This document shows positions 1 through 64,000 of a stretch of 64,000 nucleotides of DNA, piece by piece. Source of the DNA: Tetrahymena thermophila SB210 (taxonomy: Eukaryota > Ciliophora > Oligohymenophorea > Hymenostomatida > Tetrahymenidae). Position 1 is the first letter of the stretch. Each line of letters starts with the position of its first letter. Both the position numbers and the translations under genes were made by a program. The notes beneath the pieces are model-generated. The model had not been told where the DNA came from. It saw only the letters and a list, made by a program, of their open reading frames with translations, and ran no database searches. Location: positions 372,001 through 436,000 of the forward strand of contig NW_002476495.1 of assembly GCF_000189635.1 (NCBI RefSeq), read 5' to 3'.

Positions 1-3000
1 CAATAAAATAACTTTATCAAACAATAATTTTTATACTACGGCTTCATATTTATTTTTTGATGCAATCTATTCAATTAATCCTGCTCCTTAACACACCCTA
101 ATAATGAACGATTTAATGTTTTATAATAATACTTATCTGCCTTCTTCTACAGTGTAAACAGAAGTAAATATGGAAATTACTTAATTTGTTCTGTTAGAAA
201 AAATTCAAAGTGTAAATTTATCTTAAATCACCATGAAAAATCATCAAGAAATAGCCTTTTGCTCCATATCAAAATCATAAATTATTTAAATCAGCTATAT
301 TAATTGCTTAAATGAAAAAAATTTTTATAACAGTTTAGGTTAAAAATAATATGCTGGATGTTTAATTTTTAATGAAGTGAAATAACTCACCTTATCTAAT
401 CTTTTATCAAGCTATATAAAAAGTATTAATAACTCTATCTTTTTTATCTAAAATTAGATTTACACAAATACATTAATAACTCTTTAAAAAATCTAAATAT
501 TTAATTGCTATTTTGAATAAAACTAAATTAATTCATCAGCTAATCCAATTATAATAACATCTATAAATTATTCAGATATAAAAATAGATTCATCATAATT
601 TTATTCAAATAAATTAAATGGATTATAAGGTCCTTAACTTTAATCCACCACTGCGATACAAATATAAAATCCATTAGGAACAATAAATCTACTTAATAAC
701 TAATTTAATAATTCAAAATCAAATTCAATTTATAATTTCGTATATTTAATAGCTTTGAATGTTACTTTAAATTAAATAAGCTTTTAGTAATCCTCCTTTG
801 ATTTATAAGACATCTAATCAAAATTTGTTTAGTTAGGAGGTTGTCTAAGAGTTAAAACATAACTTTTAAATATTTAATCATCTAATTTTAGTTAATCTAC
901 TGCAAATAAAGGTTCTTTTCTTTATATAGAGAATATAAGTAATCAAATCAATATTACAATCGAAGATTGTTTATTTAAAGAAGGTTATGCTGAAGATGGT
1001 GGAGCAATTTATATAGATTCTTAGAACTCTAATTTTAATTTTGTTAGTAAAAAATCAAATTTTAGTGATATTTATATTTTTAAAAGTAACTCAGCTTCAA
1101 TATCAATCAAGTAAATAAATATTTCATATTTAATATTTAGTTAATTTTTAGTTTATTCCCATTCACTAGAATCAACTTATTTTATAAATTTGATAAAAAT
1201 TATTTTTATTTTAAACATTAAACATTTATAGATAATCATAAAAAACACTTGGAACAAACTCAATAATACTTGACTAAGGAATTTATAAAAATATAATTGG
1301 ACCAATAAATTCAGTTTTTTCAGATGTTATAAATACAAATATCACAATTTAAGGTATAGAAAACATAGGATTTAATGGAATTTATCCTGATTATTTAAAT
1401 ACTATATTTAAAATTACAGATCTTTAATCTGTACTATTTCTTTAAACTGAATCATCGACAATTCAATTATCAAATTGTAAATTCTAAAACATTACAGTAA
1501 AAAGTTATTAATAAAGTATCCCTATCTTACTAAATTCCACATTATCAAAAATAACTTTATAGTAAGTAATTATATAAAACTCATCATTTTATACAAGCCT
1601 AATAAGCTCACTTTAAGGATAGATTTCTATTATAGACTCTTAATTTATAAATATAACATAATTCAATAACAAAAGAATATTATAGGCAACTAATCAAATA
1701 GATTTTTTAGGAAATTCTTTAATTTTACTTACATCTTCAAAATTAATTGTGCAAGGATAATCTATTTTTTCATAAATTTCTTGTATTTAGTGCTTTGGTT
1801 CAACTTTATAGTTAGTAAGTACCTAATTTAACATTTAAGATGCTATATTCTAAGACTCTAAAGTAATTATTTTAATTAAATATTAAATATAAAAAAGAAT
1901 ATTTTATATTAGGCAAACAATGGTGGAGCAATTACACTTAATGGATTATCTTCTCAATAAAGTGTAATTCATAATACATAATTTATACGAAATACAGCAC
2001 TAATTAATGGAGGAGCTTTATATATTAAAGCACTTATAAAAGATGTAAGTTTTCAACACTTTATTACACTCATGATAGTATTATAAAATAAATAGGTATT
2101 TAGTTTAACTTTATCTGATTGTAGCATAACAGAAAATAAAGCTTTAACAGGAAATGGTGGTGCCTTGTTTATACGCTCTGATAGTGAATCATCAAAATAA
2201 CAAATTATAAATTTTTAAAACACTAAATTAACTAAAAATTAAGCTATTATAGGAGGATGTATTGACAATTAAGTTATAAACCCAAGCTTTGATTCAAAGT
2301 GTATAATATAAGAAAATTAAGCTGAGTTATATGGTGATGACTATAATTCATATCCTAGTCATTTAAATTTAATAGAAACACCAGAATTAAGTTAATACTA
2401 TAACTCATCTACAAATAAATTATCTCTAAAAAATATTAAAAGTGGATCACAAATACCATTTTTATATTTCGAATTAAGAGATGGGACAAGTAAACCAATA
2501 TTTCCTAAAGATGCTAATAAAATAAATGTTTATGTGCAATTCAGCAATAAAACCTATAATATATCCAATTATTATGTTAGAGGAAATACCAAAGCATTTG
2601 TGGATTTATAATAAAAGTAATTTCTATTTTAAGATTTATAATTAGTAGGTACACCTAATTCAAATGCTATCTTAGAATTCAAATCTGATGCTATTAAAAT
2701 ATTAAATGAATAAACTAACTAATATGAATCTAACTATTCGTATGAAGTACAAGTTTATTTCAGGAGGTGCTAATATGGCGAAATTGAGAATTCCTATAAT
2801 ACTTATAAGGAATGCATAGTTTGTGATTAAGATAAGTATTCTTTAGATAATTAATAGTGTTACTCATGTCCTTAAGGAGCAAAATGTAAAAATGGTTTAA
2901 TATTTGTCAATTAAGGTTTTTGGAGAAGAAATGAGAGTAGTCCTCTTGTAATTGAATGTATAAATAGGCCATAAAACTGTGTTGGAGATACTTATGGTAA

Positions 3001-5067
3001 TAAAGTATGCTTTGAAGGTTATATAGGACCTCTTTGTGAAGAATGTGATGTAAAATAATTTTTTTTAACTTTCAAATTTAATTTAGACATTTAAAAAGAT
3101 TTATGGAAGTTATTGGGGATAAAACTATTCTAAAGTAGGATCTTATCAATGTGGATTGTGCAAAGATTTAGGATCTTATTTGTGGAAAGCTATTTTAACA
3201 ATAATTTGGACATTGTTTTCGATTCAGCTAGCTATAAGAGGAGATTTAGAGGAATAAACAATAATAGCTGTTTAGTTAGCTTTGAAAAGACATTCAACAA
3301 TAGATTATAAAAAGATCTCTACTAACGAGCAGAAATATCGTAAAAAGAAAAAAAAATTTATGAAGAAATATCATAAAAATAAGAGTTCTATAAGTGAAGA
3401 GAAAGCTAGTGTTTATATAAAAGTATTTACTAATTATTTGTAAATTATAGGATCAATAGTGACATTTAACATAAAATTAACTACGAGTAAATTATTAACT
3501 ATTATTTAAAATTATATCAAAAAAAAATCTTTTTCAATTTTAATTAATATATCTAAGCTAAATTTATAATTATAAAGATATTTTTGATACTTCCCAGTAT
3601 TTAGGAACACCAGTAAAGTAATAAATGAATTCCCTTGACTGTACTTTAAAAGATATTTAAACAGATATTCCTATAATCTATCTTAGACTCCTTTTTACTC
3701 TAATAGTACCAATTGCATATTTATTTGCTTTTATAATAGGTTTAGTTTTCTAAAAGATATTTACAAAAACAAAAGTTCATTTATATTCAATATGCACTGC
3801 TATGATATTTATATTTATTTTAGTCTAACCAGACTTAGTTTCATAAATGATAGCCATTCTTTCTTGCAGATAAATTGGTGATACAAGTTACATTCTCTTC
3901 AATGTTAATTACGAGTGTAATTCTGATTAGCATATCAAATACAGCACTATTTTAGTTACTCCTAGTTTACTAGTGTTTGCATTCATCATACCAATTGTGT
4001 TATTTTACATTCTATATAAAAATAGAAAAGAATTATAAAGCATATCAATCAATAAAAAATATGGTTTTTTATTTAGAGAATATAAAAAAGAAATGTATTA
4101 TTGGGAATTTATAAAAATGTTTGAAAAAATAATGATAATAATAGTTCTTAACTTTTATTCACAAAACATAAATGTTAAAGGTGTACTAATGTTTATGATA
4201 ATAACTCTCTATGGAATATTTTCAAGTATCTTACAGCCTTATAGCCAATAGGGCTATAATCTAGTAGATTTTTATTAGAATAACGTATGTGCTATCACAG
4301 TACTTCTGTGTTTATTTATTAATAATAATCCTTTTAATTATTTTGTAATTACTTCAATTATAGCCATAATATTAGTTAATATTTGGTTTATTGCTGTCAT
4401 AATCTAAAGAGTAGTAAAAGGATATTTAACATAATTCAAGGATATCATTTTAAGAATAGGCTAAAAATTCTCATTTACTTAAAAATTAATAAAAAAATAC
4501 CATAAGTAATTCAATCCTGAATTAAAGGCTAAAATAAAATAAAAATTATTATTATTTTCATAACTTGATGAGGAAAAAAGATATGAACTTTTCTTATCAG
4601 GATTAAAAGAATAAATTAGTAAAATTAATTTTAATTTTTATTATTTTTAATTTTAAATATTTTTTAAGAGAGAGATCACTCTAGGTTATTTAAAAATTCT
4701 TTGAAAGATTAAGAAGAAAAGAATAGTGAAAAGATTAATTTAGACGAAGAAAATTAGTTAAAGCATAAACTTTAAAAGAAAAATAGTTCTGATATTGAAG
4801 GGAATGCTCCTTAAACTATTTTTACAAACTATAACAGTAAATCCTCAAATTAATAAGGTAAAATTTTACTTAATAAAATTTCATTTATTTGTATTAAAAT
4901 AATTTCTAGAATTAGTGCCATTAGATATAGCCATAGATTTCAAAGAGTCTCAAGAAGAAGGAAAGCAAGATATTAATTATTTTAATAATGAATAAAATTA
5001 AAGTAAAAATAAATAGGATGATTTAATAAATTTTACTTAAGATAGTGATAATTCCTCAAATGATTGA
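1..5067 (+). CDS. Gene A: large family II surface protein (beta-helix, Cys-rich module, multi-pass membrane C-terminus), 5' end missing
   Basis: This is the 3' part of a family II gene read with TAA/TAG as Gln. The reading frame begins at base 2, and exons are 2-1110, 1232-1862, 1913-2044, 2096-3049, 3099-3486, 3578-4618, 4675-4857 and 4910-5067, ending in TGA at 5065-5067. All intron phases agree, giving 1,531 residues in the window. The first half is Asn/Ser/Ile-rich with GG[AC] motifs (NNGGAI, INGGAL, GNGGAL, IIGGC) typical of PMP-like/beta-helix repeats. Exon 2096-3049 ends in a Cys-rich module with CPQGAKCKNG, NQGFWRRNESS and GYIGPLCEECD, a pattern common in large ciliate membrane proteins. 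About eight hydrophobic helices follow between 3150 and 4440, then a charged tail. It is the most diverged of the five family II copies, with no broken frame. Function and ligand are unknown; a cell-surface receptor or adhesin is inference. Confidence 0.85.
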
Positions 5068-6700: not shown

Positions 6701-9700
6701 ATGCTTAATAAATTCGCAACTATTCTATTTATCTTTCTATAAATATTTAGTAACTTTAGTATTTTATCACTGATTTATGAAAATCATTAAATTTTAGTTG
6801 ACATATAAATAAGATTTATTTAATATTTTGATTTAAAATAGGAGAAGTAGCATCCTAAGTATCTATCATTAAAAAAGACTTTCTTTAATATAACTGCTTA
6901 AGTAGTACCAATGGTACGTGGTAATCACTAGATGATGGATTGGCTGTGACAAATTGCAATAATGGCTGCTATTTAAAAGGTAGCCCAAGCTCCCCAATTG
7001 GCTTATTAATTGACACAAGATTAACAGTGAGCGGAAATATAGTATATAGCTATAATATAGGAAGTTTGACTTAATATGCAGTAATTGTAGTAGATGTTTT
7101 ATATTATATTAACAATGGAGCCTATTTAAAAATAGATATAAATTCTTAGGTTTCTCAGACTTTTAACCCAGGTTCTTAATCTTTGTACGATGATGCAATT
7201 ACTGTAGTATGTAGTGGCTAATAACAATATATTTAAAAAGCCTCTATAAGTCTAAATAGAGGATCGAATCAACTTATAAATAATAATTTATAAATTACAT
7301 TCTCTAAAATTATTTCTAGTAACCCTAATACATCTATTTTAGGAATAAAGTCAATTTCAGTTTGGTTGAGCTGCTCAATAAACTGCAAAGTATGTTCAAA
7401 TGAATTAAATTGCTAATCTTGCAAAAATGGCTTCAAACTCTTTACACTTCCCTCAGGATAAATTGTATGTTAGTAAACTTAAGGATGCTCTAATAACTGT
7501 TATTTATGTGCTGTAAGCTCATCTGAAAATGTTTGTGCATAATGCAAACCGGGTTATCAACTCTCTAATAGTAACTGTGTTTTACCTGCTTCAAGTTAAG
7601 CTTGTGCATAAGGTAATTTAATTCTTAAAAATTAAATTGAAAATTACAAAAAATAAAATTGTTTTTATAAAATTAGGTCAATATTTCGAATCTGGATCAT
7701 GCATACCTTACAGTTAATAGTGTACTTAATATTACTCTGGTAATAGTTATGGTAGTTGTGCTGCATAAGAAACATTAGCGCAGTATAGTTGTCCTTATGA
7801 ACAATATGTAATAATTTATCCGGATAGTAACCACTCTACTTATAGATGCGGTTGCAAGATGAGTTATTGTATAGATTGTTATCCTGTTGGTCCTGGTGGA
7901 TCATGCAATTCGTGTGATGATGGATACAATTTTTCACCATAAAATACTTGTTAGTCTATATGTAATAGTAATTAATACTTAAGCAGCTAACTAGATTGTA
8001 TTGATTGTGGTTAAAATTGCATAAAGTGTAATTAAAATGGTTGCTTACAATGCACGAATTCATCATATTACATAGATTCTAATAATTAATAAAATTGCAT
8101 ATAATGTTAGATAGATAAGTGTAGTGTCTGCTCTTCAAATGGTAAATAATATTGATAAATTAATAATTTGAATGAGTAATTTCTGTTTTTTAAAATAAAA
8201 AATATTTTTTGAAGATTATAAATAAATTTAGATTTTATTAAATAAGTTAATTAATTAAATTGAAGAGTTATTTACCACTCATTTAAATTACTCCAAAAAT
8301 ACGAAACTATTTTTTTTAATATCAAATGAATTAATAAATAGGTAAGTGCTCTATTTGTAATTCTGGTTATTAATTAAGCTCAGATTTCTTAACATGCTAA
8401 CCACCATGTGCTTCACCAAACTGCGCAACTTGTTTACAAGGAAGTTCAACTAATTGTTAAACATGTAATTCTTAATATATAGTAAATCCAAGCACTAATC
8501 AGTGCATATCTATAAATTCTTGTATAGTTGCTAATTGCTAGACATGTGTTTCTTAAAACCCCTTGACTTGCAGTACCTGTTCTCCTAACTTTTACCAAAA
8601 TTCAGATTCCAGTTAATGTTTATCATGTGCTGTACAAAATTGCTTATATTGCCTTTCAAATAATTACTAAAAGTGTTCCTAATGCAACTCAAATTTTTAT
8701 TTAAATTCAGATAAGAGTTAGTGTCTTCCTTGTAATGTAGCTAATTGCTTTTAATGCATTTCTAGTAATTATTTATAATGTCAAAAATGTGTAACTGGGT
8801 ACTATCTCAGCATAGATTAATCCTAATGTAAATTATGTAGTGTAAGTAATTGCGCTACTTGCTAAGATAACAATTATTAACTTTGTAAAACTTGTTAAAG
8901 TAATTATTATATCTCTGCAGATTAGCAAAATTGTATTTCCTGCACAGTTCCTAATTGTAATTTATGTGCAACAAATTTAAATTTATGTCAAACATGCAAT
9001 AATAATTTTTTTTTATCTGCTGATTAATCCTAATGCCTATCTTGCTAAGTGAATAACTGTTAGCAATGTACAGGATCATATGATAAATGCTAAAATTGTT
9101 ATAATAATTTTTATTTAACTGCAGATTAATCCTAATGCCTATCTTGTTAAGTAAATAATTGTTAGCAATGTATAGGATCATATGATAAATGCTAAAATTG
9201 TTAGAATAACTTTTATATAACAGCAGATTAATCCTAATGTCTTTCATGCTAAGTAAATAATTGTTAGTAATGCATAGGATCATATAATAAATGTTAAAAT
9301 TGTTAGAATAACTTTTATTTAAATTCAGATTAGACTTAATGTCTTCCTTGCGGTGTAGCTAATTGCTCTTAATGTATTTCTAATAATTATTTATAATGCT
9401 AAAAATGTGTTACTGGGTATTATCTTAGTATAGATTAATATTAATGTGAATTATGTGGTGTAAGCAATTGCACTACTTGCTAAGATAATAATTACTTGCT
9501 TTGTAAAACTTGTTAGAATAATTATTATAATTCTGCAGATTAAAAGTCTTGTGTTGCATGCACAGTTCCTAATTGTAATTTATGTGGAGCAAATTAAAAT
9601 ATATGCCAAGCATGCAATAATAATTTTTATTTATCTGCTGATTAATCCTAATGCCTGCCATGCTAAGTAAATAATTGTTAACAATGCATAGGATCATTTG

Positions 9701-12616
9701 ATAAATGCTAAATTTGTTAGAATAACTATTATCTAAAAGCAGATTAGTCTTAATGCCTACCTTGTTCAATACATAATTGTTAATAATGTATAGGATCATA
9801 TAATAAATGCTAAAATTGTTAGAGTAACTTTTATTTAACAGTAGATTAAACCTAATGCCTACCATGCCAAGTAAATAATTGTTAGTAATGCATAGGGTCA
9901 TATAATAGATGCTAAAAATGTTAGAATAACTTTTATTTAACTGAGGATTAATCATAATGCTTAACTTGTTAAGTGAATAACTGTTAATAATGTGATGGGG
10001 CATACAATAAATGCTTGAAATGTATAAATAACTTTTTACCTAATAGTGATAGCACTGATTGCCAGATATGTCAAGTTAAAAATTGCTAACAATGCTCAAG
10101 TTAGAATTATAATATTTGCTAATAATGCTCATAAAATTACTATTTAAACTCTTCTGAAACTTAATGCTAATCTTGTGGTGTTTAGAACTGTAAATAATGT
10201 TTTGCAAATAATTATCAATTATGTTAAATATGCAATGACGGATATCAAATATCATCAGATAAATTGTAGTGTACTTTAGCAATCATCCCAACTCCTTAAT
10301 AAAACTCATTTTAAATTAAATAATAATTGTTGGATAATGGATATAATGTAACTATAAATTTTAAATATCAACTCCAATAAAATAGCATGACATAGTCTTA
10401 ATTATTAAGTAAATAAAATTTATTTTTCCCAAATTTTTACTTTGAAAATAATTTTGATTAGAATTTAAAAATATTAATTTAAAAATTTTCAAATTTTAAA
10501 AAAATAAAAAATAGGTATATTCAGTATTTCTATTTCTGGCTTTACTTAGGATCAATATATCAAGACTTTATAACAATAATCAAATTCTACCATAACTATC
10601 ATAATTAACCCTTCAACTAATATAAAAAACTCTAAAATAAATGTAACAATTGTTGACAAAAGTTTTAGTTATTAAAATTCTATTTCTGTTGTTACACAAA
10701 CATAAGATCTAATTCCTTATGTATTTTTGTCTGAGTCTCAAATTTAGGTTTCTTAAAAAATAGCTAGTGTAGGATAAGGAATATCAATAACTTTGATATC
10801 TTCTATCATACCATCTATGTTTTTAGGAAATATTTATATCATCTGTAATACACTCGATATTACTGGTTTCTTATACTATCTTATGTTTTTAAATATTAGA
10901 TTCCCTTTAAATATAGTGAATTTTTATGAGCTATTTAAAAACTTTAATTTCCCATTTGTGCCTAATCTTTTCTCTTTTATTGTAGATCCTAACTATTACT
11001 AAGAGTCACCACCCAAATTTATGGAAATGAACACTGATAATTATTTTTTGAATAATTCTGGGTAATATTTTACAATTTACTTAGCAGGTTTCGGATTGTA
11101 TCTTTTAGCTAAAATATTTTCTAAAACTTCTATAAAATATATAAGTTCTTATTGTCAAAGAGCGATTAAAGAAACATGGGAATATGGAGCAATTATTGAT
11201 TTAAGTTGGTCATTCTATATCTACTTAGTTGTAGGAATACTTATTTAATTTAAAACATACAACTTTGATGACAAAAACTCATACATAGTTAACTATATAT
11301 TCCACTCATTGTGTTTTATAGTATTTTTTGGTGTCCCTTTTTTCTATCTTTATAAAATTTATAAGAACTAAAATATCAGTATTGATAAGGATTTTCAAAC
11401 AAAATATTCTTCTTTAATAAACGGATTAAAGCTCCCTGAAATTCCAAGTGATGATAAACCTTTGAAAGAAAATGAAGTAATAGATTTATAAAATTATGAT
11501 TTTTAAGCAAAGTCTGTTAAAAACGAAAATTAATTTGAAGATAAAAACTTCAATTAAATATTTAATTAAAAAATATGTGAGGCTCCTGAAGAATAAGAAG
11601 TAATAGAATAAAATAATGGTAAATAATTTAGTGTTTACAAGCAAGAATTTACTAAAAAAAGAACTAAATTTACCTCAGTATCTCCTTAGATTTCAGATAT
11701 AAGATTGAGATAGTTTTCTAGCTTTTTAATTAATTTCTCTGAAGAGAAGAAATCTTTTAGAGAGTTGTTGATTTACAAGTTTAGTAAGTATTATAATGTG
11801 ATCTTATACTTCAGAAAAATTCTATTTTGTATTGTAATAAGCTTTATGTATGACTATACATACACTTAAATTACCTTGATAAATATCCTTAGTATATTAA
11901 TAATAATTTACTTATCAGTATTGACTCCATTTAAAAGTAAATACGAAAATGTACAATTTATCACATAGGAAATTTTAATGATTGTCATTTAAATTTGTGC
12001 TTCCTTGCTTGTTAAGGATAGTTAAGATGAAAACGAAGATACAAGAATGAAAATTGGATGGATAATTGTTGCTATTAGTGGATTTTTAATAGCATATTTT
12101 ACACTTTTTATTATTAAGGATATTATAGTATCTATTTTTTAATTAGTTAAGTCACTTATCATATAAATTAAAAATAAAAAAAGTAAATCTAAGGTATAAC
12201 CAGCTATATTAAACTCAATCCCTATATAAATAAACAAAGAAATAGATTAAAATATATTTAATAATGGCAAGCTGGATAAAAATTTAGGCAATAATGAAGA
12301 TGTATAATCAACTAGTATAATCTATCAAACTCCTAATGTGTAAAGCTAGCCATAAATTAGTTCTTAAAAATAATTAAATTTGTAAATAGGTAAAAGAAAA
12401 AGGAACTCAGTTTTTTCCTAAAGCATTTACAAAAGTAGTCATAGCCTATAATCTACACAACCATGTAGTATCTAAAAAGTTGAAACACAATAATTGCAAA
12501 CTAATGTATTTAACACAAATTAAAACCTAACTAGCTTTAATAGAAAAAGAAGGTCAAAATATTTTATTGATTCTTAGTTCAACATAATTAGCCCTGATTA
12601 AGAAACAAAAAAATGA
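6701..12616 (+). CDS. Gene B: family I Cys-rich repeat (furin/GFR-like) multi-pass membrane protein
   Basis: Five exons (6701-6749, 6842-7612, 7677-8141, 8342-10408, 10515-12616) give 1,817 residues with consistent phases and a TGA stop. The start was chosen because MLNKFATILFIFLQIF is a signal peptide and gene C has the equivalent start and a first exon of equal length. Residues about 17-270 form an ectodomain without recognised homology. From about residue 210 the protein becomes Cys-rich, and exon 4 encodes about 18-19 units of about 34 residues with the pattern CxxC-x4-CxxC-x6-CxxC, resembling furin-like/growth-factor-receptor repeats. Exon 5 encodes about eight hydrophobic helices, including the YYLMFLNIRFPLN and WIIVAISGFLIAYF segments, with a Gln/Ser/Lys-rich cytosolic tail at the C-terminus. 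The likely location is the cell surface or secretory membranes. Ciliates hold many such proteins of unknown function. Gene C is its tandem neighbour and paralogue. Confidence 0.88.
8342..10264 (+). repeat. Coding tandem repeats, 102 bp (34 aa, six Cys per unit), in gene B
   Basis: Successive units such as CQVNNCQQCIGSYDKC recur at exactly 102-bp spacing (for example at 9031, 9133 and 9235). A higher-order duplication is also visible: the stretch starting near 8723 recurs near 9341, 618 bp later (six units), with the same order of unit subtypes. Gene C carries only one copy of this super-block, which accounts for most of its shorter exon 4. The unit length preserves the reading frame, so copy number can change without breaking the protein. 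Confidence 0.85.
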
Positions 12617-21530: not shown

Positions 21531-21544
21531 AAATATCTATTAGT

Positions 21545-31412: not shown

Positions 31413-31427
31413 TTTGATAATCTAAAT

Positions 31428-33168: not shown

Positions 33169-33182
33169 AAATATCAATTAGT

Positions 33183-45395: not shown

Positions 45396-45854
45396 GAAAC
45401 TAATAAAATATAAGAAATAGTCATTATATAAATTATTAAAAGATTATAAATCAATTTAAAATATTCTAATAATTAGTTGATTCATTCATAGCATTTTCTT
45501 TTTAATTTAATTAATTTATAAGTATTTTCATTATTTTGAATTGACAATTTTTATTTAATTATAGAAACAAATTTTTTATAAAACTATCAAAAATCCTTTT
45601 TAAAAACTAAGCATAGAAAGTATTTCAAATTTATATTAATCTTAATTTACTTTTTTGATAGTATTTATGTCGATTTATTTATTTTTGAAAGAGATATTAA
45701 ATTTAAAAATTATAAAATTAAACTGGTAAAAATTATTTTATACATAAATAATATAAACTAATTTACAATAAATTTTTTATATTAAAAATTTTGAGATTAG
45801 TATTTTATTATTATAAGAAGTAGCTTTATAGATACTTATTGTAGATATTTCTAC
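45396..45854. other. C-type 3' flank before gene F
   Basis: This AT-rich flank resembles the 3' flank of C (19933-20200), with extra sequence shared with 59190-59340. No gene is seen. Confidence 0.5.
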
Positions 45855-46106
45855 CATCTTTTATTAATAGTAAAACAAAAATTATATATTTTTAGTTTTC
45901 TTAGATACATATCAATAATAGAAGTGTTCATTTTAAATCCTACATTTGATATATATGAATAAAAGGTAAGAATAAGAAAAATCAAAAATAACAATTCATT
46001 AATTTTTGAACTTTTTTAACAAACGTTCCACTTAATAAATTCAATAATCTTATCTCAAAACCTATATTTTAATTAAAATATAGTAATAGAAGGTTGACAA
46101 AAATAA
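45855..46106. repeat. Single diverged satellite unit upstream of gene F
   Basis: One degenerate unit (GGTAAGAATAAG, AATAACAATTC, TATCTCAAAACC, ATAGAAGGTTGA) lies directly before the F start codon. The absence of an array here suggests that the single unit is the ancestral upstream region and that arrays formed by expansion in other modules. Confidence 0.65.
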
Positions 46107-46118
46107 ATATCTATTAGT

Positions 46119-49100: not shown

Positions 49101-52100
49101 TTTACAATGAACTGTTAACTTTATAAGCTTTTGCATCAACAAATTTAACAATTTAGAGCTGGAATAATAATCAATTAGCTTAAATTAATGTAAATTAGTT
49201 GCTCCAATTTTCGGGCCTCTTTATGCTAAACCTTGATGATATACTTATTAATTTTATTATTAGTAGCTCCTAATAAAAGTGTGGGGTATATTTCGATGGT
49301 ATTATTTCTAGTGCTACTATAGATAACATAAGTATATCTTCAACAGGTAGTTAATCAGATTGTTTCTTTTTTTAAATAAATAATTCTTACTTGACGATTA
49401 AAAATATAAACATAAAAAGTTTAGATTTTTCAAATACATCAACGTTAATAACAATCCTTAATTCTAAATAGGTAATTTTTTAAATTTTAAATTAAAAATT
49501 AAATATTTTTATTATATTTAATAGATTGCACTTTAAAATATTCTAATAGATAGCTGTAAATTAAGTGAAAAATTCAGTATATTAACCTAAGAGAGCGATG
49601 TAAATGTTATTATTGATACTTTTGTAATTTAAAATAATCTATGTGACATAAATTAAATTTACTATCCACAATTCTCTGGTTAGCTATTTGAAGCTGGTTA
49701 GTTCAATGTAGCTAATATGACAATATCCAATAATCAGTTTTGTAATTTATAGATATTCTCAACTGTAAGCACAATCGAACAAAAAAACTATATTTTTTAG
49801 TTCTAGAATATAAGAATGTACAATAACTCATTTTATACAACATACAATTATCTCTTTTTTGATGCTATTTATTCAATAAATCCTCTTCCCTAACACACTT
49901 TAAATATGAGCTATTTAAATTTCACTGATAATTCTTACTTTCCCTCTTCTTAAGTTTAATCTGACATATATCTCGGAATTACTTAATTAGTTCTAACTGA
50001 ACAAATTTTGTCAGTTTAAATAACTGAAGTTACAGTAAAAAACCAATAAGAAATAGCATTTTGTTCATTATCCTAATCTTCTATAGTCACACTTAGTAAT
50101 ATTTCTTGCTTAAATGAAAAAAAATTTTTTAATAGTTTAGTCAATAGAGAGTATGGTGGATGTTTAATTTTGAATGAAATAAAAAAGATTAGCATAACTA
50201 ATCTATAATCAATCTATATAAAAGGAATAAATAATTCTATTTTGGCAATAATAAATTAAGTTTACACAAATTCAGTAATAAATTTATCAAAAGTAGTTAT
50301 CACAAGTTCATATTTTGAATAAAATTAAACTATCTCCTAAGCAAACCCAATATTAATTACTTCCTCTTATACTTCTAATATAACAATAAGCAACTCAATT
50401 TTTAGCTAAAATAGATTAAATGTAATTCCTAATGCATAAACCTATTCAACTTCTGCAATTCAGATAATTAATCCATTAGGTCCTATATATTTACTTGATA
50501 ACCAATTTATTAATTCAGTATCTAGTAGCATCTTTAATTTTCAATATATAGTTGGTCTTAATATAACTATCATTAATACTATTTGCAAGCAATCTTCATT
50601 TAATATCACAGATAATACAACAACTTTAATATAATAAGGAGGTTGCTTAAGAGCTAAATCAAGCAATTTGTAAATTCTTTCTTCAAATTTTAGCCAATCC
50701 ACAGCAAGCTAAGGCTCGTTTATTTACTTAGAGAGCCTTAGTTCAGAAACAAATATTTCGATAGAAAAATCTTCATTTATAGAAGGCTATGCTTAAAAGG
50801 ATGGCGGTGCATTTTACATAAATTTATAAAACTCAAATTTAGATTTTGTTTGTAAGTAATCTAACTTTAATAATATCTATACACTCAGTTCTTATTCTTC
50901 CTCGATTTCAATAATGTAAATTAATTTAAATTAAGATTTAAGAAAAAATTTTAAATTAAAATAATTATCAACATAAAGTTATTATCATAAAATAATAAAA
51001 AATAAATAAAATATTTAATTTTTTTTAAATAAATATTCAGATAATCAGAAAATTAGAATTTATTAAACTAGATTCTATTCTATTAAGGAGAGATAATTAA
51101 TATTTTAGGCAAGGCCAACTCATATCTTTTGAATATCTAAAATTCTAATGTTACTCTTTTGAATATTCATAATAATAATTTTAACTAAACTTATCCTGAT
51201 TATTTGAATCAAATGGCTAAGCTACCTGACATCTAATCAGTGTCATTTTTCTAACTTTAAAAATCAATGTTATCAATTGTTGATTGTGGATTTTAAAATT
51301 TAATAATAAAAAATTTACAAAATACTTCCCCTCTTCTAATTAATAGTATTAGTACGAGTATAATAATTTAAAGATTAATAATTAAAGACTCTACTTTTTC
51401 CACATACTTAATTAGTGTCAATTAAGGATCTCTAAGAATTGAAAATTCTTAATTTATTAATATAAATTAGATATCTTCAAAACGAGTATTACAATCATAG
51501 ATTTATCTGATAAATTCAGGAGCTCTTATATCACTATATTAATCTAAGCTATAAATATAATAATAAACAGTATTTTAGAAAATAATTTGCATGCTATGCT
51601 TTGGCTCTATACTTTAGTTGAATTAAACACAATTTTTTATATCTGACTCTATCTTTTTAGAATCAAAAGTGATTAAAATAATTTAATATCATACAAACTT
51701 TATGTAATTTAAATATTTATTAATAAATAGGCCAATAACGGTGGTGCTATTTCAGTTAATGGTTTGGTTTCTAATCTTAATTATATACAAAATACTAAAA
51801 TGATTGGAAATACTGCCATATAAAATGGAGGAGCTATGTTTTTAATGGCCTAAAATGATGATGTAATACTTCTTTTTTTAAATAATTTCAAATTTTTAAT
51901 CATACAATTAATAGGCTTTTACTTTAACTTTGTCTAATTGCTAAATTACTGACAATCAATCTTTAAATGGAAGTGGTGGGGCATTATTTATTAACTCAGA
52001 AAGTGAATCAACATAACAGTAACAGATCAAAATTTATAAAACAAACCTATCAAATAACTAAGCAGTTATCGGAGGATGCATTAATAATTTAGGTATAAAT

Positions 52101-54939
52101 CCAATTATAGATTCTTAAAGCACAATATTGAATAACTAAGCCATTCTTTATGGAGATGATATCAACTCTTATCCTGATCATTTAAGTTTGATAATGACTA
52201 CAGATTTAAATAAATATTTCAATTAGTCAACTAATTCTTTAGCCTTATCAAATATTAAAAGCGGAGCATAAATTCCAGATGTTATCTTTTAGCTAAGAGA
52301 TTAAACTGCTAAACCAATATTTCCATTAGATGCTGATAAAATAATGATTTAAGCATAATTTAGCAGCAAAACAAAAAATATATCAAATTATTACATTAGA
52401 GGAAATTCTACAGCATTTATTGATTTAAAATAAAAACAATTTATTTTTTAAGGTTTGTAATTAGTTGGGATTCCAAATTCATAAGCAATAATTGAGTTCA
52501 AATCTGATGTTATAAAAATTTTAAATAAATAAACTAATTAATTTGAGTCTAACTATTCTTATGAATTAGAAGTTTATTTTAGAAGTTGTAAATATGGTGA
52601 AATTCAGAATTTTTATAATACATTTACAGAATGTGTTGTCTGTGAATAAGATAAATACTCTCTTGATACACAATAATGTCATGTCCTTCTGGAGCAAAAT
52701 GCAAAAATGGAATTATATATGTAAATTAAGGATTTTGGAGAAAAAATGAAAGTAGTCCTCTAGTTATAGAATGTGTAAATAAGCCTTCAAACTGTATTGA
52801 AAATACTTATGGTAATTAAGTATGTTTATAAGGTTATATAGGACCTCTATGTGAAGAATGTGATGTAAATACAACTTTTTAAATATTAATTTAACAATAA
52901 GTTTAAAATAAATAAGATTTATGGAAGTTATTGGGGAGAAAGCTATTCTAAAGTTGGATCTTATCAATGTGGGTAATGTAAAGAATTGAGTACTTATTTG
53001 TGGAAAGCCATCTTAACAATAATCTGGACTATATTTTCAATTCAGCTTGCTATAAGAGGAGACCTAGAGGAATAAACAATTATTGCTGTTTAAGTAGCTC
53101 TGAAAAGACACTCATTAAAGAATAATCAAAGTACTTCCTCAAAAGAGACTAAATATTAATCTAAATTAAATGTCAAATATGATAACCAAAAAGAAAAAAT
53201 ATCTCCAAAAGAAGAAAAAGCTTGCGTTTATATTAAAGTATTCACAAACTATTTATAAATTATAGGATCAATTATTACTTTTAACATAAAATTAACTACA
53301 GGTAAATAAAACAAACATTTTTTAATTTTAAATTTATTATTTTAGTAACATTAATTTGAAAAATCATATGTGTTTACATAAAACTACATTTTTTAGGATG
53401 AAACTAATATTTTAAATTTTATTAAATAAAAGATATATTTGATACTTCATAGTATTTAGGAACACCTGTAAGATAATAAATCAATTCCCTTGACTGTACA
53501 TTAAAGGAGATATAAACAGATATACCAATAATATATCTTAGACTCCTATTTACTCTAATTGTCCCAGTTGGCTATTTAATGACGTTTGTGCTTGGTTTAA
53601 TTTTATAAAGGTTATTTACAAATAAAAAAGTTCATTTATATTCTATTTGTACGGTTGCGATCTTTATATTTATTTTAGTTTAGCCTGATTTAGTTTCTCA
53701 AATGATAGCTATTCTTTCATGCAGAAAAATTGGAGATACTAGTTATATACTCTACAATATAGATTATGAATGCAATACTAGTCAGCACTAGAAATATAGT
53801 TCTACCTTAGTAACTCCTTGCTTATTAGTTTTTGCCTTTATTATACCTATTGGACTTTTTTACATCCTATACAAAAACAAAAATGACTTGTAAAGCATAT
53901 AAATCAATAAGAAATATGGCTTTTTATACAGAGAGTATAAAAGCAAAAAATATTATTGGGAATTCGTGAAAATTTTAGAAAAAATTTTAATCATTATAGT
54001 TCTTAACTTCTATTCCCAAGATATTAATGTTAAAGGAGTGCTAATGTTTATGGTAATTACTCTCTATGGGATAGCATCTAATATTTTATAACCCTATAGT
54101 TTGAGTGGGTACAATACAGTTGATTTCTATCAAACAAACGTGTGTGCAGTTTCTGTATTACTTTGTTTATTCATTAATAATAATCCCTTCAATTATTTTG
54201 TGATCACTTCTATTATAATTATAATCATAATTAATGCTTGGTTTATAATTGTAATAATTAAAAGAGTTATTATAGGTCTTTTAATGTAATTTAAGGATGT
54301 TATCATATAAATTTCTTAAAAATTTTCTTTTACAAAGAAGCTTGCTCAAAAGTTTTAAAAATAAAAATTAAATCCATAATTGAAAGCTAAGATAAAAAGA
54401 ATTCTTTAAGAATTTTTAAATCTTAGTGATGATCAAAAGTATGATCTTTTATTATCTGGCTTAAAGATATAAATAGGTATTAAAACTCTTGTTATTTTTT
54501 ATATTAAATAAAATTTAATTTATAGGTAGAGATCATAAAAGACTGTTTAAAGATTAGTAGATTAATTAAACTATTAAATAAAATAAACTAAAAAACTCAG
54601 CTACTGAAAATTAACACAAATTAAACTCTGAAAACAATTACTTTGAAAAAGATAATCAAAATATCCCAAAAACTGTATCTAGTAACTAGATAAACTAATC
54701 TCCTATTTTTTTATGTAAATATAATAGTTTTTTATTTAGTCTTTAAATAATTTTTTTATTAAATATTAGAATTGGAAGAATTAAATATAGCAATGGATTA
54801 GAAAGAGAGTTAAATAGATAAATAGGATATTTAAAATGGATAAATAAAATTAAATTCTGTTAATCAGGAAGATTAAAATGATCATTTAATTAATTTTACT
54901 TAAGATGAATTAGATATAGATAATACATCAAATATCTGA
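46119..54939 (+). pseudogene. Gene F: family II gene with two frame-breaking 4-nt deletions
   Basis: F keeps the signal peptide start, the family II exon plan and a terminal TGA at 54937-54939, but two coding indels relative to D, E and G break it. One is a 4-nt loss near 48071 (CTCTGATTAGAAG against CTCTAATATAGTAGAAG in G), in the propeller region. The other is a 4-nt loss near 52680 (AATGTCATGTCC against AATGTTATTCATGTCC), inside the CPSGAKC Cys module. I found no alternative splice that rescues either. Elsewhere a +2 and a +1 indel near 47500-47550 cancel, so constraint acted earlier. The tail has the single, unduplicated last exon. The intron holding the small element in D lacks it here. 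Sequencing error is possible; otherwise this is a young pseudogene. Confidence 0.75.
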
Positions 54940-56540: not shown

Positions 56541-56781
56541 ATATATTGTTTTTTTAAATAATGAGTTAAAATTATAAGCAGATAAACAAACAAACATACA
56601 ATATGTATTTACTTTAAATATATCATTTAATAATGTAAACTAAATTAAAGTTTGCTACAATTATGAATTTGAGTGATAATAAAATAATATTTTTAATGAG
56701 TTTTTGTTCTAACAATTTGTAATTAATTTTTTATTTTGTTTAACTGATTAGCTAAAATCTTTTTTACTTGCTTAGCTTTTT

Positions 56782-57220
56782 TCATTGTCTTAACTTTACG
56801 AAATTGTTAGAGAATAGCTAAAAGTTTTCAATAATACTTAATACCTTTTTAAGCTGCTACTTCATTTATTCATTTTAAAGTTATTAGATATTATTTTTTA
56901 ATTAGAGTTATGATATTTAAACTTCTTTATCTGCTAAATTTAATTGTAGATCAGCAATATCTCTCTTTTTTTATGATAATTATATTGAAAGGTTTTAAAT
57001 AAAAGAATCAAACTTTTAATTAAAAATTTGTTTTTGTTTGTAAAATTTTATTTTTGCTATTACTATTGTGGTTGAATTTAACATGAGTTATTCAATTTAC
57101 TAATAATTTAACAATTTCCTTTTCTGAACCAGAAAACTTTCTTTTTTGATTTTATTCTTATTAATGATTAGAATCTTCTGTTTTAGCTAATAATTATTCA
57201 AGTTTTTTAACTTTATTTCA
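56782..57220 (-). pseudogene. Coiled-coil frame inside the transposon relic
   Basis: The minus-strand frame contains a clear heptad-rich stretch (KKRDIADLQLNLADKEVQI, then LQNEQMKQQLKKVLSI) ending at TGA 56782-56784. Neighbouring frames are also helix-rich (KVKKLEQLLAKTED near 57200; MKKAKQVKKILANQLNK near 56770), as expected for one coiled-coil region broken by frameshifts. It may be part of the transposon protein or a second gene of the element. I do not recognise a family. Confidence 0.35.
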
Positions 57221-57769
57221 TATATTTACATCGTTTTATAATTCTTAGTGTTCAGTTTTAAATTTACTGATACTAGTAATAATAGAATTATTTTATTTTG
57301 ATAACAAAAATTATTATTGCTTTAGCAAGAATGGTGTTATTAAGATACTAGTTTTTAACTCTATTTATTGGTATTGATTGTATCAGTATTGGTAACAAAA
57401 TGAGGAAAGTTTATAAATTAATCTACAATATAATAAGATAAAGTATAATTTGCAGTGCTTTGAGCAGTTGGTAGAAGAGTTAAAAATCTTACATTTCTTG
57501 TATTTTATTACTAAAATTATCTATTTTATTCAAAATTCTCATCTTAAACCAGTTCATTAGAAATATTTAATTCACTTTACTTTATTTCTTAATAAAAATA
57601 GTTATGGGCTTTATTAGAAATAAAATAACTATTATTTATTTACTTGCTTAAAATTCAAATAAAAATTTTCAAAAAAATTTTTTTTTTCTCTTAAAAAATT
57701 AAATTGATGCTAATCTAAATTAGCTTCACTTTTACTTTAATTCAATTTTTATGTACTTTGTTTATCTCC

Positions 57770-58308
57770 TCAAATATTTAATATTTCTTAATAAATGTTT
57801 TTGCTTTATTCTTTAAAATATAATTCTTACTCTTTAAAGCTTTGGTTTTATTCTTTGAAGCTTTAATCATTATTTTAAAGATTTGATTTCATTCTTTAAA
57901 ACTTTAATTTTCTTAATTAAAACTTAAATTCTGTTAATCTGTTTTAAAATTATTCTAATTTTGATAATTATCTTATTTCTTTTAATTATTTTTTAGGAGC
58001 TAATTTTTAGGGATAACATAAAGTCTTACTTATTTTTTTAAATTTATACATAAGAACATAAGAAGAGTTGTTTTGATTTATTCCAAAATTAAAATAATGT
58101 TAAATATTTGTATTTCCTGTGGATGATTCAGTTGGAGAGTGGGTTCTTTGAATTTCTCTGACCACTATTGATAACTTTTCTCTTTAATTACTATCATTAT
58201 TTTATCTTGAATTGTATTGTTGAGAAAACTAAGAAGAGTTTTTGTTCAAAAAATTATGTTTTTTCGCTAATAAAAATTAAAATTTTTGCTATGAAATTGA
58301 TGTCAAGC
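57770..58308 (-). pseudogene. Possible N-terminal transposon ORF (about 180 codons)
   Basis: A minus-strand ciliate-code frame runs from near the right end of the element to TGA at 57770-57772. It is basic and Gln/Ser-rich, with a possible helix-turn-helix-like NFGINQNNSSYVLMYKF segment and a helical Lys/Glu/Gln C-terminal half with repeated QSFKEQ. No start codon is certain. Its position at the 5' end of the element suggests the DNA-binding part of a transposase, but this is inference. Confidence 0.3.
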
Positions 58309-58327
58309 ATCTTTATCAGATGTGGTA

Positions 58328-58940
58328 GATTATTAGGAAGTTTTAATGATAGCCATTTAAATTTGTGCTTCCTTGTTAGCTAAGGATATTTAAGATTAAG
58401 ATAAGAAACAAGAATGAAAATTGGATGGATAATTGTTGCTATTAATGGATTTTTAATAGCGTATTTTACTATTTTTATTATCAAAGATCTCATGGTATCT
58501 ATTTATTAATTACTTAAATCACTAGTAATGTACATTAGAAATAAAAAGAGTAAATCTTAGGTTTATCCAACTATCTTAAAATCCTCACCTGTATAGCTTA
58601 ACAAAAAAATGAATTAAAATATAGTTAATAATAATGTATTATCTACCAAACTCTTAATGTACAAGGCTAGCCACAAATGAATTCTTAAAAATAAATAAAT
58701 TGGTAAATAAATAGAAGAAAAAGCAACTCTTTTTTTCTTAAAGCATTTACAAGAGTAGTAATACTTTATAATCACAGTTAAGCAGTAAAAACATCTAAAA
58801 AGTTGAACAATAATTATCTCAAACGAATATATATAACATAAACTAAAACTTAAATAGTATGAATAAAAAATAAAAGTCAAAATATTATTTTTATTCTTAG
58901 TAGATCTTATTTAATCCCTATAATAAAGAAAAGAATGAAA
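58328..58940 (+). pseudogene. 3' end of a second C-type family I gene, decayed and truncated by the transposon
   Basis: From ATTAGGAAGTTTTAATGATA onward this aligns with gene C from about 19270 to its end. It has several substitutions, a deletion of about 60 bp after AATAGTTAATAATAATG, and a degraded stop region. The 5' part is missing: homology starts immediately at the right TA boundary of the transposon relic. It marks the former family I partner upstream of G. Confidence 0.82.
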
Positions 58941-59389
58941 TTAATTAAATATAAAAAAGATTCTAAATATTTGTTCTTTAATGATTATAAATGAATTTTA
59001 AAATATTATAATAATTTATTGATTCATTTTATTTTCTTTCTTTTTAATATAATTGATATATAAGTGTTTTCATTATTTTGAATTGACAATTTTTTTTTAA
59101 TTTTCTAAACATAAATTTAATAAAGCTATCAAAAATCCATTTAAAAATAAGCATTCAAATAGTAATTCAAATTTTAATTAATTTGAATATACTTTATCAA
59201 TAATAAATATGTTCAAATTATTTTTTCTTAGAGAATTTAAAGTTAAAAATTATAAAATTAAATTAGTAAAAATTATTTTATACTTAAGTAATTTTAAAAA
59301 AATTACTTTAAATTTTTTATATTAAAAATTTTGAGGATAGTATTTTATTATTATTATTATTATTAGAGGTAGCTTTTTAGATATATATT
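58941..59389. other. C-type 3' flank before gene G
   Basis: This flank is homologous to the C 3' flank and to that before F. It includes a TTA microsatellite and the ATTAGAGGTAGCTTTTTAGA marker just before the satellite. No gene is seen. Confidence 0.5.
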
Positions 59390-60172
59390 GTAGATAAAAG
59401 AAAAGAATAAGAAATGAAACATAAAAAATAATAAATAAACAAATAATCTTATCTCAAAACCTTTATTGGAATTAAAAATAGTAATAATTGAAGATTGAAG
59501 TAATATATTTTAGCTTTTCTAGAAAATTTCTTTTAAGAAAGCATACATTTAAATCCTAAATTTGAGATATTAGAAGAAAAGAATAAGAAACATCAAAAAT
59601 AATAATAAATCATCATTTTAAGTTATTTAAAAAACTCTCCACTAAATAATTCAATAATCCTATCCAAAATCTACATTTGAATTAAAAATAGTAAAAGAAA
59701 AGAATAAGAAACATCAAAAATAATAATTAATTAACATTTAAAGTTAGTTAAAAAACTCCCCACCAAATGATTCAATAATCTTATCTCAAAACCTTTTTTT
59801 GAATTACAAATAGTAATAAAAGAAGGTTGAAGAATATATTTTTTAGTTTTTTTAGATTAATTTCAATAATAGAAGTGTACATTTAAATCCTAAATTTGAG
59901 GTATAAGAATTAAAGAAAAGAATATAAAACATCTAAAATAATAATCGATAAAAATTTGAAGTAATTTAAAAACTCTCCACCAATTAATTCAATAATCTTA
60001 TCTCAAACCTATATTTGAATTAAAAATAGTAAAAGAAAAGAATAAGAAACATAAAAAATAATAATTATTCAACATTTGAAGTTATTTAAAAATCTCTCCA
60101 CGAAATAATTCATTAATCTTATCTCAAAACCTATATTTGAATTAAAAATAGTAATAATAGAAGGTTGAAAAA
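59390..60172. repeat. Satellite array 4 upstream of gene G
   Basis: About five diverged units start near 59401, 59579, 59699, 59924 and 60036, with mixed full and shortened lengths. They end directly before the G start codon, as in arrays 1 and 2, and are more diverged from one another than the units of arrays 1 and 2. Confidence 0.75.
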
Positions 60173-60184
60173 ATATCTATTAGT

Positions 60185-63100
60185 ATGAGTAAATCATTCT
60201 TTACTTTGAATTTAATAGTCATAGTCTTATTGTAATCAATACAAAGCTCTAATTCTTAAACATGTTAAGCATTTTCTAGGTAGCACTGTAAGATTAAATT
60301 AATATTTTAATTCATTATGATATTTAAATTTTAAAAAAAGAGCCTAGATTTTTTGAGGGCTATATTGCTTCTAATTATTTGAAGTTGCCTAACACTAATA
60401 TACTTTTGATAAACACTATATGTTATTAAAATGGTGTATAGTCTCAGAGTATAGTATATTACATTGATATTTCTAGTGAAATTGATAATATTGTGAATGT
60501 GGTTAAGAGTAAATTTAAATAAATTGTTTATATATTTTTATAACAATTTTTATTTTATTAAAGCTAAATTCGTTATATTTCAAATGGAGTATGTACTATA
60601 AAGAAATCAAATTTTAGTTCTGAATTCAGAAGGGCTAATATACGCAGATCCTTATACTCTTGAATCTAAATAAACACTACCATATAGTCTTTTAGAAAGT
60701 ATGCATTTCATGAAAGGATCTAATTATTGTGTCTTAAAAAGTATAGTATATTTATTATATGTTGTTGACTTTATAGAAGGAAAATAAATTCTAGCTTTGA
60801 ATATTTCACCTTTTAATTCTGACAATATTAATCGGATTACCTATGTAAAGTTACTTTAGCTTTAAAATGGTTAGAATTTTATAGCAGCAATTGATTAGTA
60901 TGGTGCTTATACTTGGTCAATTGATTTTAAAACTTTTAAATTCTCATTTAACGGATATTATTCGATAGATTGTATAACTTATTTTTTAAGTCTTTCAAAG
61001 AATAATATTTCACACTATTTTATTTTATAGATTATAATTATAGTTTAATAGATTTCCACAAAAGTTATGACATTATATTTTTAGCAGGAGCTAATTGTCA
61101 AATCAATGCTTTCTAGATCATTAATTTATAAGCGAATTAGATAAATTTAATCAAGACTGATTGTAGATTAAATATAATAATAATTTTCATTTTAAATTTC
61201 TTAAAATTTTAAAAAATAGATCTACCGAATGGTCAATCAGATAATATAGTCAGTTTAAACTTTATAAATTCTTAAAATAATTAAGGCAGTTTATACATAA
61301 GTAGCTAAACGCTTATTTATAGAATAGATTTAAATTTTATCTATAATTAGAATACAAATACATTTGATTCTTTTAGCTTTGATAATATCAATCAACCTTT
61401 TACTGTTTAACTACCTGGAAATCCATGTTAAGAATGGTATTATTTTGAAGAAAGTCAATAGTTTTTAATACCATACTACACTGGATACTTTGGATAATCA
61501 GCTCTATTTGTTTATTCCTATAGTACAAACACTTAGCTCACTCGTTTTAGTAAAAATAAAAATTTCATAAATAAATTTACTTTAACTATTCTACTATAAA
61601 ATTAAGCTTTTCCTTCTGCAGGTTTTACAAAAATATTTAGTTTCTAAATCAATTAAGAAATATACTTTGCTGTTGCTACATTTTACTAAATTATAGTCAC
61701 TAAAGATTCTCCAAGTAACCTAAAATCTATCCTTACTTATCCTCTTATTGCGTAGATCAAAGCAAGATAAAATACATTTTTTTCTGTAAAAAACTGTATT
61801 ACTTGTTTTATTGCTATGCATGATTATACATACTTAGTATTTTATAAAGTAATGGACTCATCATTCACCCCTTAAGTTATTACTTCTTTCTTTCTATCTT
61901 AATCAAAAATATTAAAGTTATTATAAATATAAAAACAGGTATATGATTTAAGTTAGTTAAATCTTGATAATGATTCAATAAGCTTTAATATTGATCCCTA
62001 CTAAGATATTAATCAAGTTATTTGGGTTATTGTAGGATTACCTTAAAAATAAAATAATGAAAATTTTTTATTTTATGCTATAAATATTAGCTCTTAATAA
62101 TAGTATAAATTGCTCTCTAATATAGTAGAAGAAAATAACCAAAAAACAAGTTATGCTCTCTATTCCTAAGAAGATTAAGAAATCGTTGGTATAGCTGTTA
62201 ATGGAAGTATTTTTGTTTGGAATTCTACAGACCTTTCATTCAAATACTCAATAGGTAATCATACAATAAAATCTAACATAAAATTCAAAAATAAACTAAT
62301 GAAATATCAAATCTTATCCCAACAAATTTTCAGTTTTTTTCTTTAATTAAAAAATAATAATAATAAAATATTTTAAAAATTATTTAATTTATTTATTCAA
62401 AAAATTAATTTTTATAAAAAGCATCTGATTGTTCTGGCTCAATAATTGGTTAATTATTTCATAATGATGATAATAAATTTCTTATAATAGTTTGTGGTGA
62501 TTACAGTTTAATTGTCTATAATTTCTTTAAAAAAACATTTTAAACATTAATGAAACTATAGGCAACTCCATACTATTTAAATGTATTCAATAAAATTAAT
62601 ATGTTTGGAGTTGGAGATTAAATGAGTGGAGATGTTTATTTATGGAATTTTAATACAGTTAGTTAATAATTTGAATTATTTATGCATTTCCAGTCACCTT
62701 CTTTAACAGATTGTGGAAGTAATATTCAGTATATAGAAAAGACTTAGGTTTTATTTATTTAGTATTACTATAGTAATACATTTTTCCCTATTGGATAATG
62801 TCTTTAAAATTTGCCTAGTTGTACTTAGAAATGCTAAATGCAGTTTTATTTTAATACTACTGAAACTACTGATACTTAAAGTCTATATGGAATAGGTTCT
62901 TTTGAATAGCCTTTTACAACCTCTTTGAGTATAATTTCATCTTTACTTTTAGTAAATATCTAGATTAAAATAAAAATTTTACCAAAGTATTTTTCTATTT
63001 AAAAATAATATTTTCATTTTAAAAATAGGTTAAGTAATATTTCGAATTAATAAACGGATTTGAAATTCTAAATGTTAACTTATTACTGAGCAACTAAAAT

Positions 63101-64000
63101 TAGATGGTGTTTTACAATGAACTACTAACTTTGTAAGTTTTTGCATAAACAAATTTAACAATTTAGAGCTAGAATAATAATCAATTAGCTTAAATTAATG
63201 TAAATTAGTTGCTCCAATTCTCGGATTTCTTCATGCTAAACATTGATGACATACTTTTTAATTTCATTATTAGTAGCTCCTAATAAAAGTGTGGGGTCTA
63301 TTTCGACGGTATTGTTTCAAGTGCTATTATAGATAACATAAGTATATCTTCAACAGTTAATACATCGGATTGCTTCTTTTTTTAAATAAATAACTCTTTC
63401 TTGACTATTAAAAATATAAAAATAACAAGTTTAGATTTTTCAAATGCATCAACGTTAATAACAATCGTTAATTCTTAATAGGTAATTTTTTAAAATGTAA
63501 ATTAAAAATGAAATATTTTTTTTATATTAAATAGATTGTACTTTAAAATTTTCTAATAGATAGCTGTAAATTAAGTGAAAAATTCAGTATATTAACCTAA
63601 GAGAGCGATGTAAATGTTATTATTGATACTTTTGTAATTTAAAATAATCTATGTGACATAAATTAAATTTACTATCCACAATTCTCTGGTTAGCTATTTG
63701 AAGCTGGTTAGTTCAATGTAGCTAATATGACAATATCCAATAATCAGTTTTGTAATTTATAGATATTCTCAACTGTTAGCACAATTTAATAAAAAAACTA
63801 TTCATTTTAGTTCTAGAATATAAGTATGTACAATAACTCATTTTATACAACACACAATTATCTCTTTTTTGATGCTATTTATTCAATAAATCCTCTTCCC
63901 TAACACACTTTAAATATGAGTTATTTAAATTTCTCTGATAATTCTTACTTTCCCTCTTCTTAAGTTTAATCCGACATCTACCTAGGAATTACTTAATTAG
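60185..64000 (+). CDS. Gene G: family II surface protein, 3' end outside the window
   Basis: G starts with the family II signal peptide (MSKSFFTLNL...; exon 1 is 60185-60287, 103 bp as in D and F) and follows the D exon plan through the propeller-like region into the first large beta-helix exon, where the window ends. All inspected exons are open, including the spot near 62115 where F has lost 4 nt. A +1 and a -1 indel near 61560-61605 cancel locally. G is closer to F than to D/E at several positions (for example the PRFF motif after intron 1). The membrane domain is not in view, so intactness of the whole gene is unknown. Confidence 0.83.

Follow-up and report, generated by a model that had tools for sequence, protein, structure and literature searches.

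A Recent Tandem Expansion of Genes for Probable Surface Receptors in Tetrahymena thermophila, with Likely Scars of Unequal Recombination

Organization of the Locus

The stretch of DNA analysed here, called the window throughout, covers 64,000 nucleotides of Tetrahymena thermophila SB210 (C71:372001-436000, C71 being contig NW_002476495.1, 471,083 bp) and carries an array of large genes belonging to two families of predicted membrane proteins, family I and family II. The GC content per 2-kb step varied from 16 to 26% across the window, and the large reading frames were open under the ciliate code. In the genome searched (101.0 Mb, 445 contigs), CCCCAA repeats were found, among the matches listed on contig C4, at its start and on the opposite strand at 465.6–465.9 kb. 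Exon stretches of the telomerase gene TERT agreed with the solved T. thermophila TERT chain 6d6v_A, with no mismatches except at exon ends. We read the window as macronuclear DNA of T. thermophila. Genes were predicted from the DNA alone with a purpose-made gene finder and a frameshift-tolerant protein-to-DNA aligner. The gene finder is unable to put a stop inside a model, so that genes B and C are called "open" in the sense that an open model can be built for them.

Seven genes, A to G, follow one another on the plus strand in the order II-I-I-II-II-II-II, and genes A and G extend past the window edges. The features are as follows.

1..5067, + strand: gene A, family II, an older divergent copy, with a modelled 5' end 3.67 kb upstream of the window
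6701..12616, + strand: gene B, family I, 1820 aa modelled; Cys-rich (VSP/furin-like) repeats, then a multi-transmembrane region and a tail
14677..19932, + strand: gene C, family I, 1596 aa modelled (gene model)
20203..21544, + strand: satellite before D, period about 209 bp, ending one base before the start of D
21545..30248, + strand: gene D, family II, 13 modelled exons; the end given is that of the aligned query, and tail exons continue
21700..23320, + strand: fast-evolving N-terminal ectodomain of D, about residues 30–450, exons 2 to 4 (substitution-rate analysis)
31428..31724, + strand: family I fragment before E, an internal Cys-repeat piece (C 16976–17272), abutting the satellite directly
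31724..33182, + strand: satellite before E (tandem repeat and self-comparison)
33183..41787, + strand: gene E, full-length family II copy with a single uncompensated frameshift near 34945
44104..45640, + strand: family I 3' fragment before F, a DNA match to C from 18603
45884..46118, + strand: short satellite match before F, the match itself ending at 46097
46119..54713, + strand: gene F, full-length family II copy with two frameshifts (near 48069 and 52680)
56543..58329, + strand: family II 3' flank running into the shared junction, with long matches in this array only
58330..59183, + strand: family I 3' fragment before G, matching C from 19270; junction common to ten units
59337..60184, + strand: satellite before G (tandem repeat and self-comparison)
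60185..64000, + strand: gene G, family II, continuing to at least 68728 in window numbering

The gene models bear out the composition given by the original prediction, an earlier description of this DNA, namely family II with five genes (A, D, E, F and G), and family I with two full genes (B and C) and three fragments, all on one strand. The starts of D, E, F and G, which it had placed 11.6, 12.9 and 14.1 kb apart, were modelled by the aligner at 21545, 33183, 46119 and 60185, i.e., with spacings of 11,638, 12,936 and 14,066 bp. The two families do not alternate as it had stated. It had also described the same block, with a C-type 3' end, flank and satellite, before each of D to G: a tandem repeat does lie directly before all four starts, but the fragment before E is internal to C and no 3' end of C was found there. 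Self-comparison of the window displayed the repeated blocks, but the fragments before E, F and G begin on the left at different places in C (~16976, 18603 and 19270, respectively).

The satellite, with periods of 120, 209 and 338 bp, separates the C-type sequence from the family II start; in D, E and G its end coincides with the start codon or adjoins it. All 29 satellite matches listed were on contigs of the array, bar one 101-bp match on contig C40. A role as a repeated promoter or leader is conceivable.

Copies of the Array Elsewhere in the Genome

The array runs on to the end of C71 and onto four other contigs, and it extends upstream as an older run composed of family II only. A genome search with a 4-kb family II query returned 14 matches of full length, one that was split and one fragment, spread over contigs C71, C174, C262, C354 and C391; recent family II copies number about 15 on these five contigs. 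This is a lower bound because three of the contigs (C71, C391 and C354) break off within a family II copy. Upstream of A, seven more matches to the family II transmembrane (TM) exon were located on C71 from 300616 to 365758, two of them within one gene model; with the addition of one model without a listed TM exon, the older relatives number about seven. No family I match was found on C71 upstream of B. Genome-wide, the TM exon had at least 138 matches (137 of 516 candidates scored), many of them in tandem runs on other contigs, so that Tetrahymena has many large membrane proteins of the family II design.

Design and Coding Status of Family II

The family II query comprised 2,439 residues over 13 exons. 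From a hydrophobic, signal-peptide-like start, the protein passes to an N-terminal ectodomain, a beta-helix-like stalk, a Cys-rich segment, a multi-TM region and a cytoplasmic tail. This layout suggests that the proteins are located at the cell surface, where the tip would recognize something variable (other cells, prey or particles) and the conserved TM and tail part would pass the signal on. Profile matches were weak. The Chlam_PMP repeat (Chlamydia PMP, beta-helix) was found in A alone, with 19.6 bits for a cut-off of 20.6. PF06011 (TRP / flavin carrier-like TM domain) weakly matched 13 of 14 family II TM exons, with E values up to 1 and a best E of 5.3e-5; one of these exons scored 19.3 bits, below the curated cut-off of 28.5. 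By sequence, no meaningful match to solved structures was obtained for the TM profile of either family or for exon 4 of family II. The family II N-terminus was beta-propeller-like in appearance when inspected by eye.

The tail exons of family II are tandemly repeated. At window 30112–30653, the C-terminal tail exon lies inside a 266-bp exon-plus-intron tandem repeat, and therefore the number of motifs (core ESDYFDKDNENSPNTVY) varies among copies.

The joined exons of D and G contained no TGA, and neither did the part covered of C262_1152, C262_1166, C262_1138 (3' part), C354a, C354b and C174_670 (copies outside the window are named after their contig). Uncompensated frameshifts were present in this assembly in E (one), F (two) and H, the next copy downstream (two). 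They may partly reflect assembly errors; the H unit holds one 435-bp run of N. An early in-frame TGA was observed in C391 and C174_682, and frame events without TGA in I and C174_700. Gene A aligned over its whole length with one frame event near residue 424, where conservation is poor; its joined aligner exons contain an in-frame TGA, at a place that the gene finder bridges by introns, which leaves A a putative coding gene. At residues 317–335 (window 22919–22972), several recent copies have compensating indels relative to G over about 18 residues, and identical DNA is therefore read in different frames among copies.

Family I Genes and Their Relatives

Genes B and C code for proteins with 157 and 114 cysteines, respectively, in which the Cys-rich part is followed by a multi-TM region and then by a long hydrophilic tail. 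The repeat exon of B matched the Giardia VSP profile (PF03302) with 57.1 bits, above the curated cut-off of 31.4. Giardia VSPs have a single C-terminal TM helix and a CRGKA tail. Family I does not share this feature, as B and C possess several hydrophobic TM segments and their C-terminal ends are ...QETKK and ...TERKE.

In the genome DNA search, B and C were the only full family I genes of this kind. Remoter relatives occur on C125, at C262:309-482k and elsewhere (64 of 116 candidates scored). Two separate clusters of such relatives, C125:172898-200051 and C262:308800-482050, had no family II sequence nearby among the matches listed, and among the matches listed in both genome searches no second site was found with the two families adjacent. 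A profile comparison gave little sign that the TM parts of families I and II share a common descent, with only 33 columns aligned at a probability of 2% (E 0.024).

Junctions of the Family I Fragments

The 15 recent units differ in the sequence that precedes the family II gene. The full gene C is present in one case (D), an internal Cys-repeat piece in another (E) and a 3' fragment of C in twelve, and nothing was detected in the unit at C174:666.7k. Ten of the twelve 3' fragments start at position 5771 or 5776 of the query (window 19270–19275), the other two starting at 5104 (F) and 5689 (C391). The flank left of the G fragment adjoins the fragment in all ten units, G itself being the query; two of these shared-junction fragments are split. 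Read base by base, the junction was identical in six units (G, H, I, C262, C174 and C354). At C174:655.4k the flank is followed by other sequence, an arrangement that resembles the state before rearrangement. The C391 fragment is collinear with C beyond the shared junction point, and a short weak match to C is present at window 43896–43963, left of the F fragment. The E fragment has 99% identity to C, and its joint with the satellite reads as a further deletion. The identity of the fragments to C (91.1–95.6%) was similar to that of the adjacent family II genes to D (92.6–96.0%) in all eight units tested, so that the relic and the family II gene plausibly travelled together.

Outside the 15 units, the segment C174:706078-708196 contains an internal piece of C (707.3-708.2k) beside an extra family II TM exon and 3' part, and looks like a further recombination scar. 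We also considered whether the relics could be small working genes. In the first 660 bases of eight relics, a single TGA-free frame was observed in F, I, C354, C391 and C174_700 and none in the other three; this idea was not supported, several genome matches having TGA or short frames within them.

We read the relics as the left ends of duplicated segments, in other words as duplication scars, because most copies would descend from a unit with one junction. Such junctions show that gene fragments may be carried along as scars of a neighbour's amplification, a situation that can be mistaken for paired gene loss.

Divergence of the Copies and the Two-Gene Module

The synonymous divergence (dS) was 1.36 between A and D, 0.38 between B and C, and 0.03–0.18 for the recent family II pairs listed. 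In trees of two regions, F was placed beside the outgroup A with supports of 0.99 and 0.97. A simple assembly artefact is an unlikely source of the array since the recent copies compared differ by a dS of 0.03–0.18 and have different junctions.

The original prediction rightly saw the tandem duplication of a block with family I sequence together with family II. It went on to propose a two-gene module, one family I and one family II gene, that was duplicated as a unit and then lost its family I half several times independently. The family I fragments found before 13 of the 15 recent family II copies fit this proposal, as do the three left borders other than the shared one (E, F and C391), and two fragments, the one before E and that at C174:707.3-708.2k, are internal pieces that lack a 3' end, as a deletion could leave them. 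However, independent losses fit poorly with one junction inside C common to ten units, and with the junction-free flank on C174. The sole intact family I gene beside a recent copy is C, before D, and no family I match was found in the older run of family II genes upstream. A module duplicating as one unit would be expected to give matching A/D and B/C divergences, which is not the case. We consider repeated loss from a two-gene module very unlikely.

Substitution Rates along Family II

The ratio of nonsynonymous (dN) to synonymous divergence, omega, was markedly unequal along the gene. For all pairs of the 15 recent copies, broken ones included, residues 30–330 gave a dN of 0.145, a dS of 0.102 and an omega of 1.42; omega was 0.90 at residues 330–700 and 0.36–0.57 in the regions from 700 on. 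The analysis was repeated on a restricted set, six copies open over the part covered, with residues 310–345 dropped. Residues 30–450 then showed a dN of 0.137, a dS of 0.092 and an omega of 1.50 (bootstrap 1.15–1.99), compared to a dN of 0.039 and an omega of 0.41 (0.32–0.52) at residues 700–1450. The mean intron divergence of the same pairs, taken over the first seven introns minus those of unlike length, was 0.093. Positions with at least three residues among 13 copies made up 24–35% of residues 30–450 and 8% of residues 700–1400. Old divergence is not the cause of the N-terminal signal because the N-terminal dS is not raised.

Maximum-likelihood estimates of omega for the N-terminal part were 1.17 (GY), 1.33 (MG) and 1.53 (MGK), those for residues 450–700 were 0.47 (GY) and 0.62 (MG), and the helix part gave about 0.35 under the two models run (GY and MG). 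Twice the log-likelihood difference from omega = 1 ranged from about 1.1 (GY) through 3.8 (MG) to 8.3 (MGK, the best likelihood), so that the excess over 1 depends on the model; the contrast between the N-terminus and the rest of the gene does not.

It could be argued that the N-terminal excess of replacements results from relaxed constraint, from gene conversion by divergent donors or from alignment error, the array being a decaying repeat. The frameshifts of E, F and H, the early TGA of C391 and C174_682 and the frame events of I and C174_700 go in this direction, as does the compensated stretch at residues 317–335, and omega = 1 was not rejected under GY. In addition, the closest relative of several copies differs from one part of the gene to another, a pattern suggestive of recombination among them. 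Against this explanation, the signal persists in the six open copies without residues 310–345, and N-terminal dN exceeds intron divergence. Decay or artefact as the source of the signal is in our opinion unlikely, though it deserves to be kept in mind.

Between B and C, omega was 0.27 overall and 0.21–0.46 by region, indicating purifying selection throughout family I. The variable surface repertoire formerly suggested for both families is therefore supported for family II only, because omega is about 1.2–1.5 in its N-terminus (30–450) and about 0.35–0.4 beyond residue 700. The rate excess of the family II N-terminal ectodomain over the rest of the gene is new here. Only the outermost domain evolves faster than the introns, which points functional work to one domain of one subfamily.

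Proposed History of the Array

Family II is a long-standing tandem family whose members code for very large membrane proteins, and one of its branches has recently expanded to about 15 copies. One of these copies, D, lies just downstream of the family I pair B and C. We propose the following history. An unequal recombination or a tandem duplication, with breakpoints inside C and in the family II 3' flank, would have copied a segment composed of the 3' end of C, the satellite and the family II gene, and most of the other copies would descend from a unit with one such junction. The array would thus be an expanding and diversifying family of probable surface receptors marked by the scars of unequal recombination, a reading to which we give a probability of about 0.7.

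Several points weigh against it. The C174:666.7k unit has no detected relic, the E scar requires an extra deletion, and the extra C piece at C174:707.3-708.2k comes with an extra family II 3' part; the history was thus not one clean event. Several family II copies are broken, the omega above 1 of the N-terminus is model-dependent, and the gene models are DNA-only predictions. What is shown comprises the structure, junctions and copy number of the array, its timing, the coding status of the genes and the pattern of selection; the surface location and the ligand recognition are deduced from sequence features only.

Two neighbouring models are of a different nature. The model C71:303001-304869 in the upstream flank, unlike the neighbouring family II genes, codes for a 495-aa protein that looked by eye like an M28-like peptidase. 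In the model C71:460776-462310, between H and I, a family I relic is joined to what looked by eye like part of a protein kinase; this kinase-like stretch had no match in the F–G interval.

Comparison with Known Systems

In the literature consulted, we recognized no paper on this array or on a role for it; gene identifiers were not searched. The Tetrahymena tandem leucine-rich repeat (LRR) clusters similarly result from a recent lineage-specific tandem expansion of repeat proteins, but they concern another protein family, whose hallmark is tandem 90-bp LRR exons (PMC6564038). The T. thermophila Ser antigens (PMC4136848), like the VSPs of Giardia, are surface proteins rich in Cys, a description that may apply to family I as well. 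The Ser proteins are linked to glycosylphosphatidylinositol (GPI) (PMC4136848); the multi-TM region and long tail of family I would argue against such a link.

The mating-type genes MTA and MTB resemble the array in combining a conserved TM part with a diversified ectodomain and in having been multiplied in tandem (PMC3608545). They are arranged head to head, their furin repeats are encoded within the TM exon, and the somatic locus retains one pair (PMC3608545). The array is instead head to tail, its Cys repeats are encoded by exons that precede the TM exon, and the macronuclear assembly has about 15 copies. Family I thus departs from the MTA/MTB arrangement, B and C being head to tail with Cys repeats outside the TM exon.

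The nearest functional lead for the array may be the mating-type recognition complex of T. thermophila. In the published description, MRC2 has a pectin-lyase-fold domain and eight TM helices, and MRC1, part of one complex with it, a growth-factor-receptor (Cys-rich) domain and five TM helices (PMC10901506). The likeness is one of design, MRC2 corresponding to family II and MRC1 to family I. The members of the complex are 92–212 kDa (PMC10901506), and the family II proteins, with about 2,440 aa, are larger. One could imagine the recent family II copies as a live repertoire of recognition receptors, whose tips diversify rapidly while stalks and TM parts stay nearly constant, and which join Cys-rich TM proteins (e.g., B and C) as their pectin-lyase-fold partners in similar complexes for self/non-self or prey recognition; at this stage we hold this to be a rather improbable extension of the likeness. 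The one published complex found to unite both designs is that by which Tetrahymena distinguishes mating types (PMC10901506).

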